33,746 bases of DNA from Clostridiales bacterium. GTDB lineage: Bacteria; Bacillota; Clostridia; Christensenellales; UBA1750. Under the pieces are notes generated by a model that was not told the origin of the DNA, made no database searches, and worked only from the letters and a program-made list of their open reading frames with translations. The DNA lies in NCBI GenBank assembly GCA_015056005.1, contig SVHB01000024.1, positions 1 through 33,746 on the forward strand, read 5' to 3'. Every line of letters starts with the position of its first letter. The first letter of the stretch is position 1. The translations under genes and the position numbers were made by a program. Positions 13,550 to 27,082 of the stretch are shown piece by piece.

Positions 13550-15304
13550 TTATTCCAACATTTTAAGCACCCTCGCGTGGGAAACGGGGTCGATGGTGAA
13601 GGTAATGAGGGTACCGGAGTCGTTATATTCTTCGGCTTTAACGGTACCGTACTTATGGATGAAAGCGGAGACATTGCTTTTTGCGTAGGGGATGAGGAGG
13701 GTATCGTCGATCATTCCGCCGCGCAGCTCGTCCTGAATAAGCAAAAGGAGCCTGTCGAGGTTGAGCCTGTGCTTGCCCGAGACGGCGACGCAGGGCTTTT
13801 CAACGATGTCCATGAGCGCAGGCGACTTATCGCATTTGTTGTAAGCGTAAATACGTGGCTTATCGCCCGCGCCGAGCTGAGTGAGGACCTCGTCGACCAC
13901 CTGCTGCTGCTCGCGCATGTGTGGGCTGGAAGCGTCGGCAACAACAACGAGCAGATCGGCGTACAGCGCCTCTTCAAGGGTCGACTTAAAGGCGTCGACC
14001 AATGTGTGCGGCAGGCGGCTGATGAACCCTACCGTGTCGACCAAAAGGCATTCGCTGCCGTCGGGGAGGCTGATGCGGCGCGTGGTGGTGTCAAGGGTGG
14101 CAAAAAGCTGATCCTGAACGTATACGTCGGAGCCGGATATAGCGTTCAAAAGGGTCGACTTGCCCGCGTTGGTGTAGCCGACAAGCGCAGCCACGGGCGT
14201 TGCGTTTCGCTCGCGCTTCTGGCGGCGTACAGCGCGGTTTTTGGCAACGGCGGCGATCTCGCGCTCGATCTCGTTTATGCGCATCCTTATCCTGCGCCTG
14301 TCCATCTCAAGCTTCGTCTCGCCCGGGCCCCTCGTACCGATACCGCCGCCCAGCCTCGACATGGCAACGCCCATGCCGATCAGGCGCGTGGAGTTGTACT
14401 TGAGCTGCGCAAGCTCGACCTGCAGCTTGCCCTCTCTGGACTGCGCGCGCCCGGCGAAAATATCGAGTATCAGCATCGTGCGGTCGATTATCTTGCAGCC
14501 GGTGAGCTGGGTGAGGTTCTTTATCTGTACGCCCGTGAGCTCGTCGTTGAAAATTATCACCTGCGCTGAAAGCGACTGCGCGATCAGGGAAAGCTCCTGC
14601 GCCTTGCCGCTGCCGATGTAAGTGCCCGGCTCGGTGGTGCGGCGTTTCTGGCAATCGATGTAAACCGTCCTGACCCCAGCCGTGTCGGCAAGGGCCTTTA
14701 GTTCGCGCATGGTCTCACTCTCTGGGTCGTCCCTGCCGAAAAGGATTGCGCTCTCCCCCTCCTCCTCGTTGGAAGTCGTGGAAAACGCGTCGATCTGCGC
14801 GTCAACGTCCAGAATCGTTTGATACCAGTCGTTCTGGGGAATGCGGTAAATGCCGTAAACATCGGAGACCGTCACGCCCATATCGTCGCCGTTTGGGCAA
14901 AGCCATGCGCACTGCACAGCCGAAGGCCTGCCGTCCTTGACCGATAGCGAAGCCATAGCGTCCAAGCGCAGTGTCTTGAGCGAGTTTAGGTCAACCAGCG
15001 ACAGCGCAGGGTCGCCGTTTGGATGCGTGTGCAGGCACCTGATGCCCGCAAGCGTCCTCCCGCTCCTGCGCAGCCTGAGGTTTATGAGCGATACCGTGTT
15101 GCTGTCGCCGATCGATACGTCAAGCACGCCGCCCGTGCGGTCAATGTATACCGCGATCTCGCGCTGCAGTATCCCGGTGTACTTCGCAAGCGCTTCCATA
15201 AGCTCCCGCGAGGCAAACTCGTCCGCGTCAGTCGGTATGTCGTATATCGATTCCATCTCGTCAAGCAAGCTTAAACGAATGTTCTCAATAGCGCCGTTTA
15301 TCAT
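13550..15304 (-). CDS. hflX: Ribosome-associated GTPase HflX with N-terminal JAMM-like domain
   Basis: HflX splits stalled or hibernating 70S ribosomes. I chose MINGAIENIR (ATG at 15304), giving 584 residues; the open frame runs on upstream only through repeat DNA that encodes no plausible protein. The HflX core occupies about residues 185-584: N-terminal domain with GSGKAQEL, the GGGIGTRGPGETKLE motif, G1 GYTNAGKST (376-384), G2 TTTRR, G3 DTVGF and G4 NKCD. Residues 1-170 form an extra domain with HTHPNGDPALSLVD (92-105), an exact JAMM pattern H-x-H-x7-S-x2-D, and a candidate Glu49 upstream. This suggests a Zn-binding MPN/RadC-like fold; activity is unproven. Extensions of this type occur, to my recollection, in clostridial HflX. 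Weak SD AGGGAAAG. Confidence 0.94.
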   Translation of the reverse strand: MINGAIENIRLSLLDEMESIYDIPTDADEFASRELMEALAKYTGILQREIAVYIDRTGGVLDVSIGDSNTVSLINLRLRRSGRTLAGIRCLHTHPNGDPALSLVDLNSLKTLRLDAMASLSVKDGRPSAVQCAWLCPNGDDMGVTVSDVYGIYRIPQNDWYQTILDVDAQIDAFSTTSNEEEGESAILFGRDDPESETMRELKALADTAGVRTVYIDCQKRRTTEPGTYIGSGKAQELSLIAQSLSAQVIIFNDELTGVQIKNLTQLTGCKIIDRTMLILDIFAGRAQSREGKLQVELAQLKYNSTRLIGMGVAMSRLGGGIGTRGPGETKLEMDRRRIRMRINEIEREIAAVAKNRAVRRQKRERNATPVAALVGYTNAGKSTLLNAISGSDVYVQDQLFATLDTTTRRISLPDGSECLLVDTVGFISRLPHTLVDAFKSTLEEALYADLLVVVADASSPHMREQQQVVDEVLTQLGAGDKPRIYAYNKCDKSPALMDIVEKPCVAVSGKHRLNLDRLLLLIQDELRGGMIDDTLLIPYAKSNVSAFIHKYGTVKAEEYNDSGTLITFTIDPVSHARVLKMLE

Positions 15305-15330
15305 AATTCTTTCCCTGCCTTTCGTTTTAG

Positions 15331-15480
15331 GGGGTACGATTTTTTGGAAGAAGGCGTTGCCTTCTCCCAAGCCCTCATCCACCAGAGGATTGCATCCTCT
15401 GGACTCCGCGGCTTTGGGGTAGTGGGAGTTTTCGCGTTTGTGGTCGATGGCGGCGGCAAGTATGCCGCCATCGAGATTTA
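15331..15480 (+). repeat. Mosaic half-composite, F orientation, in the hflX leader (copy 10)
   Basis: Outer end GGGTACGATTTTTTGG (15332-15347); A cap 15349-15365 (AGAAGGC, GTT, GCCTTCT); B hairpin 15382-15402 (CCAGAGGAT, TGC, ATCCTCTGG); E 15444-15474. It has no linker, G or D modules. It lies between the hflX promoter and its start codon, so it is transcribed antisense as part of the hflX 5' UTR. Confidence 0.88.
15444..15474 (+). repeat. E palindrome 9 (F)
   Basis: Arms TCGATGGCGGC / GCCGCCATCGA, loop GGCAAGTAT. Confidence 0.9.
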
Positions 15481-15515
15481 CGCTGCAGAAAGTTATACTT
15501 AAAAGTTCAGGTAAT

Positions 15516-15544
15516 ATTATACCCTCTCGCCCGCCCGTTTTCAA
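15516..15544 (-). promoter_or_regulatory. Promoter of hflX
   Basis: On the minus strand: TTGAAA (15544-15539), 17-bp spacer, TATAAT (15521-15516). It predicts a leader of about 205 nt containing the E, B and A hairpins. It sits in the gap between the left half-composite and the right composite. Confidence 0.82.
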
Positions 15545-15545
15545 T

Positions 15546-15942
15546 GGGCACGGCTGCCGATGATATGCGCCTTGGGGCGAGTGATATGTTTGCTTCGCAA
15601 ACGCGATATGCGCTTTGGGGCGCGCGATATGTTTGCTTCGCAAACGCGATATGCGCCTTGCGGCGCGCGATATGTGCGCGAGGGGGCTTTTTTATGCCTT
15701 ATCAGAGTAACCAAGTCTTCAGCCGTCATAAATATCACGAACTAAGAATACGCGCACGCAAAATACTCCGACCCCTGCTTGAACAAGCACTCAGCTATCC
15801 TCGACGTGGCCACCCCTTACGGCCACGTCGACGCAAAAGCCTAAATTCCCTGATCCCAAAGTCTCAGGAATCCAAGGGATGAAATCCCTTGGTGGGATGG
15901 GGCTTGGGGAAGGGTGAAACCCTTCACCAAAAAACCGTACCC
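15546..15942 (-). repeat. Mosaic composite, R orientation (copy 11)
   Basis: D array 15561-15682 with GTTTGC-TTC-GCAAAC twice, GCGCC-TTGC-GGCGC and GCGATAT spacers at 15603, 15624, 15646 and 15667. Then the G segment, E 15801-15831, B about 15870-15890, A cap about 15910-15926 and outer end CCAAAAAACCGTACCC (15927-15942). This outer end pairs with 15332-15347 at 15 of 16 positions as an inverted repeat. Confidence 0.9.
15801..15831 (-). repeat. E palindrome 10 (R)
   Basis: Arms TCGACGTGGCC / GGCCACGTCGA, loop ACCCCTTAC. Confidence 0.9.
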
Positions 15943-16080: not shown

Positions 16081-18888
16081 ATGAGGGAGAAACTGCTCAT
16101 GAACCGCGGCTGGCTTTATCATTTCGGCGAGCCGGAGTATCTTAAGCCGAAGCCAACGTCTTCCGACCAGACCTATCGCGGCTCGAGGAGCGAGAACGCG
16201 AGGGGACCCGCAAGGCGCGATTTTGACGACAGCGCCTGGAAGCAGGTCACACTGCCCCACGATTTCGTGAACGAGAACGGCCCCGACTACAAAAACTGCA
16301 AACCGGGCGAAAAGCATCGTTACCCCTTGGACAGGGGCACGGCGTGGTACAGGCGCTATTTCAAGCTCGATAAAGAGGACGCCGGCAAGCGCATCACCCT
16401 GCTTTTTGACGGCGCAGCGCTTAACTGCAAGGTCTATGTAAACTCGATGCTGCTCAAGACCAACCACACCGCGGGCATCGGCTTTGAGGTCGATATCACT
16501 CAGGTGGCGAAGTTCGGCACCGATTATAATGTCGTCTCCGTTCACTGCGACTGCACCGACTTTGAAGCATGGTACTACGAGGGCGGCGGCATATACAGGG
16601 ACGTGTATCTGATAAAGACCGACCCCTTATCAGTCGACCTCTGGGGAACCTTTGTCAAATCCACAAGGCTTGAAGGAAATACGTGGAATCTGGATATATT
16701 GACCGAGGTCAGGAACGACTATTACGACGATAAGACCGCAAGCGTCGTGTCGAGCATAATCGATAAGGATGGAAACGCAGTTGCGTCCATTAACAGCGAA
16801 AGCATCTCCTTCCCGCAGCAGGAGACCATGGAGGTCTGGCAGAGCGTCGAGCTGGAATCTCCCCTGCTCTGGTCGCCCAAACAGACCAATATGTACATGC
16901 TCAAAACCCAAATCGTAGCTGATGGAAAGGTCGTTGATGAATACGATACCCCCTTCGGCATCAGGGAGATCACCTTTGATAAGGATAAGGGCATGTTCTT
17001 AAACGGCGAAAAGACCGTCATATACGGCTTTGCCAACCACCAGATACAGGTCGGCATGGGCAACGCCATGAGCGATTCCATGCGCGAGTACCAGATGCGC
17101 ACCATCCGCGATATCGGCGGCAACGGCTTCAGAACCGCGCACAGCCCCCACGGGCCCGCGACCTATGATTATTGCGATAAATACGGACTTATGGTCATGG
17201 ACGAAAACCGCATCTTCCAGCCGGGCGAGATCAGGCAGGACGAGGTAAAGCGCCTTATCAAGCGCGACAGGAACCACCCCAGCGTAGTCATGTGGTCGCT
17301 TTATAACGAAGAGGACACCGTTTCACATGAAACAGGCAGGCGCATATTCAAAAAGCTCTATTCCGTGGCAAAGAAATACGACGATTCAAGACCGATATCG
17401 GGCGCTACCAGCTACGGCATGTTCACAGAGGGCAGCGTTGACGATTACGACATCTTCGGCGTGAACCACCAGACCATGAATTTCCCGGGCCTGCACGCGC
17501 AGAAGCCCGATAAACCCCTTTACTGCTCGGAAATGGTCTTCCCCTTGGGCCCCGTCCGCCCCGGGCGCGACGCCGTACCCGGTCAGGACGCACGCGCGCT
17601 CGAGCTGCCCTATGCCATCGGCGGCTTCCATTTTACCGCATGGACGTTCGGAAGCGGTAAAGGCAGGATATTCGACTGCGACGGCAGGATGCGCTCTGTC
17701 GCCCACGGCTTTAAGGCGTACCTTAAACAGGACGAGCCCTACATGAAGATATGCCCCGGCTGGGATATGGACGGCTTTGAGGGCAAGGAAGTCGAACTGC
17801 TGCTTGCAAACAACGGCGATTATGTCGAACTTGAAATCAACGGCAAGCCAGCAGGCAGGTTCACAACCGACATGTACTCCATCACCCCCGCCTGTGTTGT
17901 GTATGAGCCGGGTACGATCAAGGCGACCGCCTACAAAAACGGCGAAGTCTGGGCGACCGACACGGCCTGCACCCCCGGCGCGCCCGTATCAATTAAGATG
18001 GTCATGGAAAACGAAGTCCTTTACGCAGACGACAACGACGTTGCCATCATCAGCGCATATCTTATCGACAAGGACGGCAATATCTGCACCAATTACACAG
18101 GCATGCCCACCCTTTTCGTTTCCAACGAAGCGGGCGAGTACGTGAGCTCCGTTCGCACCCGCGACGACGGGTTCATGGGCTGGCACGATAACCACGTCAC
18201 CTTCTTCGAGGGCAAGACCCAGCTGTTCTTCCGTTCAATGGATGCAGAGGATGACCTTGTTATCACCGCCATCCCCGACGCGCAGCTTGACGCTGTCTCG
18301 CTCACCATCGTGCGCGACAGGAGCGTGAAGGTGCCCTCAGTTCCCGTTGTGCCCAACAACTTCGTGCTCAACTGGCGCATCTCCCCGCTCATGCCCTACA
18401 CCATCGATATGGAAGGCATAATGCGCGCAGGCGCGCCCAAGGTCTGGGAAGTGATCGACACTTTGGGTTCGCCCGATGTGCTCTTTGGCGCAAACGAGCG
18501 CTTTTCCCCCGATGTGCCGCTCAATTACGCCTATTACAACAAGGCAGTCGTGCCCGATATGGGTAAAGCGCCCGAGGGCGAAAGGCTTTACCTTGCTTTC
18601 GAGGGCTTTGACGGCGTTGCCGATATTTACCTTGTCTCCCGCACTAAAACCATGCACGCCTCCCATGCCCCCGATTCGCCCTGGCCCGGTCATTACCGCC
18701 CCGTCTGGTATGTCGACGCTTCCTGCTTCGATCCCGGCGAGGAAGTGACCGTCTGGATATTCGTCCACGCCGCCAAGCGCGTCACCGGCATCGGCTGGCC
18801 CGTCCACTGGCATTTCCTCTCCCCCGATTTCGTAAATGAATACAACGCCCGCGAAAAGCGCGAGTGGGCTCAGCATCTGGTTAAGTAG
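16081..18888 (+). CDS. Glycoside hydrolase family 2 (beta-galactosidase/beta-glucuronidase type)
   Basis: Retaining exo-acting hydrolase of beta-linked galactose, glucuronate or related sugars. 935 residues, no signal peptide, so cytoplasmic. The N-terminal jelly-roll domain (about 1-190) has LPHDFV, GTAWYRRYF and the FDGAALNCKVYVN motif. An Ig-like domain follows, then a TIM barrel from about 300. The acid/base is Glu410 in WSLYNEED (Asn409-Glu410) and the nucleophile Glu484 in LYCSEM. About 350 C-terminal residues form extra beta domains with Ig-like character. SD GGAGGTG at 16069-16075. A single-gene unit with its own promoter. Substrate cannot be fixed from sequence. A degenerate parS lies inside (17320-17333). 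Confidence 0.92.
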   Translation: MREKLLMNRGWLYHFGEPEYLKPKPTSSDQTYRGSRSENARGPARRDFDDSAWKQVTLPHDFVNENGPDYKNCKPGEKHRYPLDRGTAWYRRYFKLDKEDAGKRITLLFDGAALNCKVYVNSMLLKTNHTAGIGFEVDITQVAKFGTDYNVVSVHCDCTDFEAWYYEGGGIYRDVYLIKTDPLSVDLWGTFVKSTRLEGNTWNLDILTEVRNDYYDDKTASVVSSIIDKDGNAVASINSESISFPQQETMEVWQSVELESPLLWSPKQTNMYMLKTQIVADGKVVDEYDTPFGIREITFDKDKGMFLNGEKTVIYGFANHQIQVGMGNAMSDSMREYQMRTIRDIGGNGFRTAHSPHGPATYDYCDKYGLMVMDENRIFQPGEIRQDEVKRLIKRDRNHPSVVMWSLYNEEDTVSHETGRRIFKKLYSVAKKYDDSRPISGATSYGMFTEGSVDDYDIFGVNHQTMNFPGLHAQKPDKPLYCSEMVFPLGPVRPGRDAVPGQDARALELPYAIGGFHFTAWTFGSGKGRIFDCDGRMRSVAHGFKAYLKQDEPYMKICPGWDMDGFEGKEVELLLANNGDYVELEINGKPAGRFTTDMYSITPACVVYEPGTIKATAYKNGEVWATDTACTPGAPVSIKMVMENEVLYADDNDVAIISAYLIDKDGNICTNYTGMPTLFVSNEAGEYVSSVRTRDDGFMGWHDNHVTFFEGKTQLFFRSMDAEDDLVITAIPDAQLDAVSLTIVRDRSVKVPSVPVVPNNFVLNWRISPLMPYTIDMEGIMRAGAPKVWEVIDTLGSPDVLFGANERFSPDVPLNYAYYNKAVVPDMGKAPEGERLYLAFEGFDGVADIYLVSRTKTMHASHAPDSPWPGHYRPVWYVDASCFDPGEEVTVWIFVHAAKRVTGIGWPVHWHFLSPDFVNEYNAREKREWAQHLVK
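17320..17333. promoter_or_regulatory. Degenerate parS-like site inside the GH2 gene
   Basis: GTTTCACATGAAAC differs from the parS core by one base (A for G at the centre). It is in frame over Thr-Val-Ser-His-Glu-Thr. Sites with one mismatch can bind Spo0J weakly; use here is unproven. Confidence 0.35.
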
Positions 18889-25369: not shown

Positions 25370-27082
25370 ATGCAGAAATCGGCAAAAGAGAGGCTGCTTT
25401 GGTCGCAGTTCGACTCACTTCAGATCGGCATGGACTGGGACGAAGAGGACATCGTTCGTCCGCAGGTACTCATTGAAGACGTATTCGGCGACAGTCATCC
25501 GGGCTCGTCGCATTTGAACAGGCTTGCAGAGCAGGTAAAGTACGGCGTATACGAAAAAGGCGGCAAGCCCGCGTCGTTCCACGCAACGGACATCTGTGAC
25601 GGCTGCGCGCAGGGGCACGACGGCATGAACTACATCCTTGCATCGCGCGAGACGATCGCCGACATGGTAGAGCTGCATGCGATGGCGACCCCGTGGGACG
25701 CACTTGTGCTCATTTCGTCCTGCGACAAGTCCCTGCCCGCGCATCTTATGGCTGCGGCGAGGATAGACATCCCCACCATCCTTGTGCCCGGCGGCTCGAT
25801 GCGCCCCGCGCCCTACATGACCACTTCCATCAGGGCGGGCGATATTTCTCTTCGCCAGAAGAAGAAGGACGCTATCTCCGATGAAGAGATCAGGGAATTC
25901 AAGCTGACCGGCTGCCCCTCCGAGGGTGCCTGCCAGTTCCTGGGCACCGCATCCACCATGCAGTGCATGAGCGAGGCGCTTGGCATGTCTTTGCCCGGAA
26001 GCGCCCTTGCACCCGCGACCATGCACGATATCCTGAACCTTTCCCGCAAGGCTGGCAGGGCTGCGATGAATCTTTATAAAAAGGGCATCAAGGCATCCGA
26101 CATCATGACCCCCGCCGCGTTCAGGAACGCCATCATCGTGCACTCCGCAATCGGCGGCTCGACCAACGCGACTCTCCACCTGCCCGCGATCGCAGCCGAG
26201 CTGGGCATCGACCTGCCCGTTGACCTGTTCGACGAGATCAATCATCTCATCCCCCACATCGGCAACATTTATCCGGGCGGAAAGCACCTGACCGAGTCGT
26301 TCTGGTTCGCAGGCGGTATCCCAAGGGTACAGCTGATGCTCAAGGATTATCTTGATCTTTCCGTTATGACCGTAACGGGCAAGACCCTTGGCGAAAACCT
26401 GCAGGATGTTGTGAAGGATAATTTCCTTTCCCGCAACGCCGGCTACCTTGCAAATTACGGCATCGATGTTGATGAAGTCGTGCGCCCCGTCTCTTCCGTC
26501 AAGGAGATCGGCTCGCTGGCTATGCTCAAGGGCAACATCGCGCCCGAGGGCAGCGTTGTCAAATACGGCGCGCTCACCGAAGAAATGATGGTTCACGAGG
26601 GCAGAGCAAGGGTTTACGACAGCGAAGAAGCCTGCTACGGCGCAGTTGTTGCCGGTGAAGTCGATCAGGGCGACGTGCTCGTTATCCGCTACGAGGGCCC
26701 CAGAGGTTCCGGGATGCCCGAAATGCTCATGACCACCGAGGCTATCGTCTGCGACGAGCGATTGAACGGCACCGTTTCCCTTATCACCGACGGCAGGTTC
26801 TCCGGCGCGACCAGAGGCGCCTGCATCGGTCATGTCTCCCCCGAAGCCGCAAGCGGCGGCCCCATTGCCTTCATCCGCACAGGCGATATCATCCGCTATG
26901 ACATCCCCGGCCGTACCCTCGATGTAGTCGGTATCGACGGCGTGAAAAAGACCCCCGAGGAAGTCGCTGCTGTCTTTGCTCAAAGAGCCAAAGAAGGCAT
27001 CATCCCCCGCCCGAAGAGAAAAGGCGTGCTGAAAAAATACACCGACAACGCCAAGTCCGCCATGAAAGGCGCAGGGCTGTAG
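25370..27082 (+). CDS. IlvD/Edd family dehydratase (dihydroxy-acid dehydratase or sugar-acid dehydratase)
   Basis: Fe-S dehydratase removing water from a 2,3-dihydroxy acid. 570 residues, normal for IlvD. Motifs: [26 protein letters not shown] (cluster Cys), a Cys-rich [26 protein letters not shown], and GSGMPEM / [22 protein letters not shown] near the C-terminus. At the position of the first cluster Cys of [2Fe-2S] enzymes (TPCNxHL) it has HPGSSHL, as in the E. coli IlvD type. The N-terminus is shorter and rather divergent from typical IlvD, and no ilv or leu genes are adjacent. A pentonate dehydratase is therefore possible, given the arabinofuranosidase upstream. SD AAAGGAGG. Confidence 0.82.

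Follow-up and report, generated by a model that had tools for sequence, protein, structure and literature searches.

A dispersed hairpin repeat, probably carried passively, in the leader of a clostridial hflX gene

A hairpin-forming repeat that lies between a promoter and a gene may control that gene or may simply be carried along in its transcript, and this is the question raised by the hflX locus of a gut Clostridiales bacterium (assembly GCA_015056005.1). The window, the whole stretch of DNA that was analysed, is the 33,746-nt contig SVHB01000024.1. Upstream of hflX lie three hairpins, E, B and A, which together form one copy of a dispersed repeat, here termed a half-composite. The case separates a transcribed repeat from a regulating repeat, two things that are easily confused. 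The features of the locus, listed in the direction of hflX transcription, are as follows:

15800 to 15941, minus strand: another half-composite, lying upstream of the promoter that serves the divergent gene at 16081 and outside the interval from this promoter to the gene (profile search)
15562 to 15690, no strand assigned: GATATG-type repeat units, upstream of the hflX promoter, termed an F half-composite in the first-pass annotation (repeat map)
15539 to 15544, minus strand: −35 hexamer TTGAAA of the hflX promoter (promoter scan)
15516 to 15521, minus strand: −10 hexamer TATAAT, after a 17-nt spacer (promoter scan; rarity in the genome sample)
15509, minus strand: inferred hflX transcription start, about 7 nt past the −10 hexamer, which would give a 205-nt leader
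15333 to 15505, minus strand: half-composite, HMM positions 2 to 174, running from E to A along hflX transcription (profile search)
15444 to 15474, minus strand: hairpin E, an 11-bp perfect stem, allele TCGATGGCGGC, found in 6 of 76 copies (stem reading)
15382 to 15402, minus strand: hairpin B, a 9-bp stem, allele CCAGAGGATTGCATCCTCTGG, found in 22 of 77 copies (stem reading)
15344 to 15370, minus strand: hairpin A, a stem of 12 pairs that includes one G-U in the leader RNA, identical in 8 of 77 copies (stem reading)
15314 to 15323, minus strand: Shine-Dalgarno region GAAAGGCAGG (pairing with the 16S tail)
13550 to 15304, minus strand: hflX, 584 amino acids, start ATG at 15304 to 15302 (profile match and homology)

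The hflX product matches TIGR03156 at 442.9 bits (cut-off 216.75). Gene starts were taken from a crude in-house gene caller, and the hflX start was placed by hand from homology: the N-terminus MINGAIENIR is conserved in relatives and fixes the start at the ATG at 15304 to 15302. The Shine-Dalgarno region has no unbroken GGAGG; its GAAAGG-C-AGG pairs with the 16S tail at −13.1 kcal/mol, and 880 of 952 genes pair equally weakly or more weakly, a ranking that does not bear out an earlier description of the site as weak. A 56-codon open reading frame (15305 to 15473, minus strand) begins in the E stem and its TGA overlaps the hflX ATG; no ribosome-binding site was seen for it.

The hflX promoter, TTGAAA-17-TATAAT at 15544 to 15516 of the minus strand, carries 11 of the 12 consensus bases. 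Sites of at least 11/12 are overwhelmingly intergenic, with 79 per 254,720 intergenic strand-bases vs. 2 per 1,126,808 coding strand-bases in 690,764 bases sampled from the host genome. Over a 1,249,338-base sample, 138 such sites point toward a gene start, five toward a gene end and 13 lie within coding sequence. Dinucleotide shuffling of the 296-nt stretch upstream of hflX produced none in 2000 trials. Since sites this good concentrate upstream of genes and are absent from the shuffles, the hflX promoter is credible. Nor is it repeat-borne, because the 80 nt that include it (15560 to 15481) match nowhere else in the genome.

Between the element and the hflX ATG is a gap of 28 nt in which no promoter-like site was found. 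The leader strand holds no intrinsic terminator, and both terminator-like sites in the scanned region are on the plus strand, outside the leader. Because there is neither a promoter between element and gene nor an intrinsic terminator in the leader, RNA polymerase would pass through the element, and the three-hairpin repeat is very probably transcribed together with hflX. The first-pass annotation had proposed the consensus promoter, a leader of about 205 nt in which hairpins E, B and A follow one another, and transcription of hflX through them. The promoter and the hairpins are confirmed; the leader length agrees with a start some 7 nt past the −10 hexamer and an ATG at 15304; and there is good support for transcription through the hairpins. 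It is unlikely that the working promoter of hflX lies elsewhere, such as inside the repeats or past them, and not at 15544 to 15516. A consensus match is no proof and the intergenic region is long and rich in repeats, but 11/12 sites in this genome are strongly intergenic (79 vs. 2) and mostly point at gene starts (138 vs. five at ends), and no competing site lies closer to hflX.

The origin of the long leader is suggested by relatives. The −10 box ends 211 nt before hflX here, and 33, 36, 46, 52 and 52 nt before it in five of the 10 family genomes compared, all five of one genus that is not the host's. The other five, including the closest relative (G001), have no comparable hflX promoter, G001 showing only a weak 9/12 site. 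Removal of the 173-nt element from the 211-nt distance leaves 38 nt; because this falls within the 33 to 52 nt of the relatives, insertion of the repeat between the native promoter and the ribosome-binding site of hflX is the simplest and most likely history. A search with the hflX leader DNA matched the host's own genome alone (1 of 41), and a homologous leader in relatives was rejected on that result.

The reading favoured here, held with fairly good confidence, is that the hflX element is a passively carried repeat of BOX/BIME-like type in the leader of an ordinary promoter, where its insertion has been tolerated. A single ordinary sigma-70-type promoter at 15544 to 15516 would drive hflX, and the half-composite, presumably inserted there, would sit exactly between this promoter and the ribosome-binding site. 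RNA polymerase would read through the element, whose three hairpins have no T-tail on the hflX strand. The hairpins are predicted to fold locally and to leave the ribosome-binding site as open as random spacer would, or more so. The element would thus be carried passively in the 205-nt 5' UTR, and any effect, such as one on decay from the 5' end, would be a by-product.

The first-pass annotation had further suggested that the hairpins control translation of hflX, a claim for which the modelling gave no support. The leader is predicted to fold at −76.8 kcal/mol (z = −3.99), with none of 200 shuffles as stable, which its hairpins must bring about. Opening the hflX ribosome-binding site is modelled to cost 8.6 kcal/mol when the element is present and 6.6 kcal/mol when it is removed. 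The former value was equalled or exceeded by 170 of 200 shuffled elements and by 54 of 84 other family copies placed at hflX in the folding model, and sequestration of the ribosome-binding site by the element was rejected because the native value is not above either control. A terminator or attenuator in the leader was likewise rejected, as the leader strand has no intrinsic terminator. The window gave no match at gathering score in a search of Rfam 15, and a riboswitch or other known structured RNA was rejected on this result.

A 5' UTR in which the hairpin array has been selected to control translation or decay of hflX mRNA is consequently judged improbable. The likely transcription of the hairpins and the folding z-score fit such a role, as does the attenuating leader that controls Listeria HflXr according to the available text of PMC6310831. 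The minimum-energy fold also pairs a UUUCUGC preceding the element with GCAGGGA at the ribosome-binding site, but this long-range pairing is missing from the centroid fold. An opening energy at or below that of most shuffled elements and most other family copies and the lack of a leader-strand terminator speak against selection for control, as do stem alleles that are common at other loci (E in 6/76, B in 22/77 and A in 8/77 copies) and the lack of any such leader in the 10 family relatives examined. Regulatory control of hflX by the element is thus not supported, the models having yielded no positive evidence for it; putative effects on hflX mRNA decay are possible.

Translation of the leader, either through the 56-codon frame coupled to hflX or from an in-frame GTG at 15382 within the element, is less probable still. 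Both frames are open and the crude gene caller chose GTG 15382, but no ribosome-binding site is visible ahead of the ATG of the 56-codon frame, a TGA/ATG overlap arises with any ATGA start, and the proteins of relatives begin at the residue encoded at 15304.

Comparable leaders had been suggested for mnmG and ilvD. The positional part of this suggestion stands, in that the two starts are preceded, at 27 and 39 nt, by the end of a half-composite, but no promoter of at least 10/12 faces either gene. The gene upstream is co-directional in both cases, and transcription of these elements by read-through from upstream is the likelier and simpler account. The gene called ilvD (25370 to 27082) scores 525.8 vs. 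an IlvD cut-off of 618.15, and its product may be a sugar-acid dehydratase. This gene follows an arabinosylfuranosidase gene.

An Lsa-type ABC-F gene elsewhere in the host genome (G000, contig C12, L185:10785) is a clearer parallel to hflX than mnmG or ilvD. A 12/12 promoter lies 553 nt upstream of it, and its leader (L185:10203-10785) contains a short open reading frame (MMDGERMF), a T-tailed hairpin resembling an attenuator-terminator and two half-composites, followed by a Shine-Dalgarno sequence. At least one relative (L190) appears to have a comparable ABC-F leader without repeats. Within the half of the genome that was sampled, HflX and this ABC-F protein, both of which act on stalled or drug-bound ribosomes, are the only products of strong-promoter genes with elements in the leader. 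It is nevertheless very improbable that the repeats have been co-opted as a leader element common to a ribosome-stress regulon: the two-of-two pattern is striking but was noticed post hoc, and ABC-F leaders are long by nature and offer more room for elements.

The rarity of such leaders is evident from the dispersed family as a whole. A profile built from 14 window copies was applied to the window plus 80 stretches of the host genome (1,249,338 of 2,503,417 bases) and found 121 half-composites, none inside predicted genes; 20 of the 80 stretches were chosen for element matches, and densities are thus not genome means. Of 111 convergent intergenic regions 20 carry half-composites, as do 26 of 657 tandem and two of 122 divergent regions (convergent vs. 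divergent, Fisher p = 1.7e-5). The A end adjoins a stop codon (no more than 25 nt away in 41 of 77 cases) or a start codon (no more than 58 nt away in 16 of 37). Copies of the family thus extend through intergenic DNA as far as stop codons and Shine-Dalgarno sequences, yet nearly all leaders between promoter and gene are free of them: in this sample, an element intervenes for only two of 138 strong promoters that face a gene start. A previous run, covering the window and 40 stretches, gave 110 half-composites, and an element lay within two of 73 such leaders.

Transcription of the copies that do lie near start codons probably comes from upstream for the most part. In the first sample, 24 matches had their A end no more than 250 nt from a start codon. 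Where the gap between the A end and the start was at most 58 nt, none of 14 had a promoter in it; where it was longer, seven of 10 had a promoter of at least 10/12. Since 11 of the 14 half-composites with the short gap lie after a co-directional gene, most start-adjacent copies are probably read through from that gene; hflX and one further locus (L177) are divergent exceptions.

The family appears confined to its host lineage. The E core has 63 exact copies in the host genome and none in 395 other genomes of the order or in 397 others of a phylum-wide draw, and no description of the repeat was found in the literature searched, which was limited to one paper collection. Spread in viruses was rejected, as viral contigs gave no stretch with the one E-allele pattern used. 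The density of half-composites is uneven, with 83 in the 20 match-picked stretches, 23 in the window, and three in 20 and 12 in 40 of the others; it is highest in the window, which carries mnmG, noc, parA and parB-type genes. Density tracks the GC3 of genes (r = 0.67), and a bin chimaera was rejected as its cause because composition appears to form a continuum (GC3 0.50 to 0.71), an argument short of proof.

The stems are nearly perfect. Across 76 full copies, the 11-bp E stem occurs as 13 alleles with 831 of 836 cells Watson-Crick; B stems are comparable (687 of 693 cells) and A stems less clean (836 of 924). This shows that something maintains the hairpins. The near absence of G-T or A-C intermediates from the E and B stems favours upkeep at the DNA level, or recent copying, over drift under RNA selection, but does not prove it. 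Blocks appear to have been shuffled between E stem alleles. One copy (L174:16887) has a 26-bp perfect palindrome across hairpin B and its flanks.

As a regulatory claim, the hflX locus is ordinary, translational control being unsupported; its leader is of moderate interest in that it illustrates a dense repeat family specific to one lineage. Of greater interest than the hflX copy is the family itself, which has many perfect-stem alleles and for which no Y1 transposase was found.

Known leader and repeat systems offer several comparisons. The leader of Listeria hflXr (Rli80) is described, in the available text of PMC6310831, as having a 14-aa RLR open reading frame and a terminator/anti-terminator switch. 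As far as that text goes, the two share a long structured leader ahead of an HflX-type gene; they differ in that the host hflX leader has no terminator on its strand. The three forward-frame translations of this leader contain no RLR motif.

REP/BIME elements are palindromes of 20 to 40 nt, present in many copies and in opposite orientations, that lie mostly downstream of genes, between co-directional or convergent neighbours, and CGTC-tagged REPs without a dedicated transposase occur among them (PMC3733652, in the text available). The host family is similar in its short palindromes, high copy number and intergenic location (121 half-composites, none inside genes). It differs in that no Y1 (RAYT-type) transposase (PF01797) was found in the host genome, which is 94% complete, although eight of 21 genomes searched have one; a RAYT-driven REP system was rejected for this reason. 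Near the A tip, 37 of 85 copies have GACG/CGTC and 16 of 85 have GTAG, and CGTC occurs in 287 of 5000 random intergenic 45-mers. The CGTC is suggestive of a REP tag.

BOX elements of Streptococcus pneumoniae are modular hairpin repeats, limited in lineage and enriched between convergent genes; they are sometimes co-transcribed in untranslated regions, and are regarded by the authors as parasites and not as dedicated regulators (PMC3049150, in the text available). To the extent of that account, half-composites resemble BOX in being modular hairpins that are lineage-limited, enriched between convergent genes and, in some cases, probably transcribed within untranslated regions. They differ in that several stem alleles are shuffled among hairpin slots, and the likeness proposed is one of organisation. 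Membership in either BOX or REP is not claimed; by analogy, half-composites would work like BOX and REP/BIME elements.
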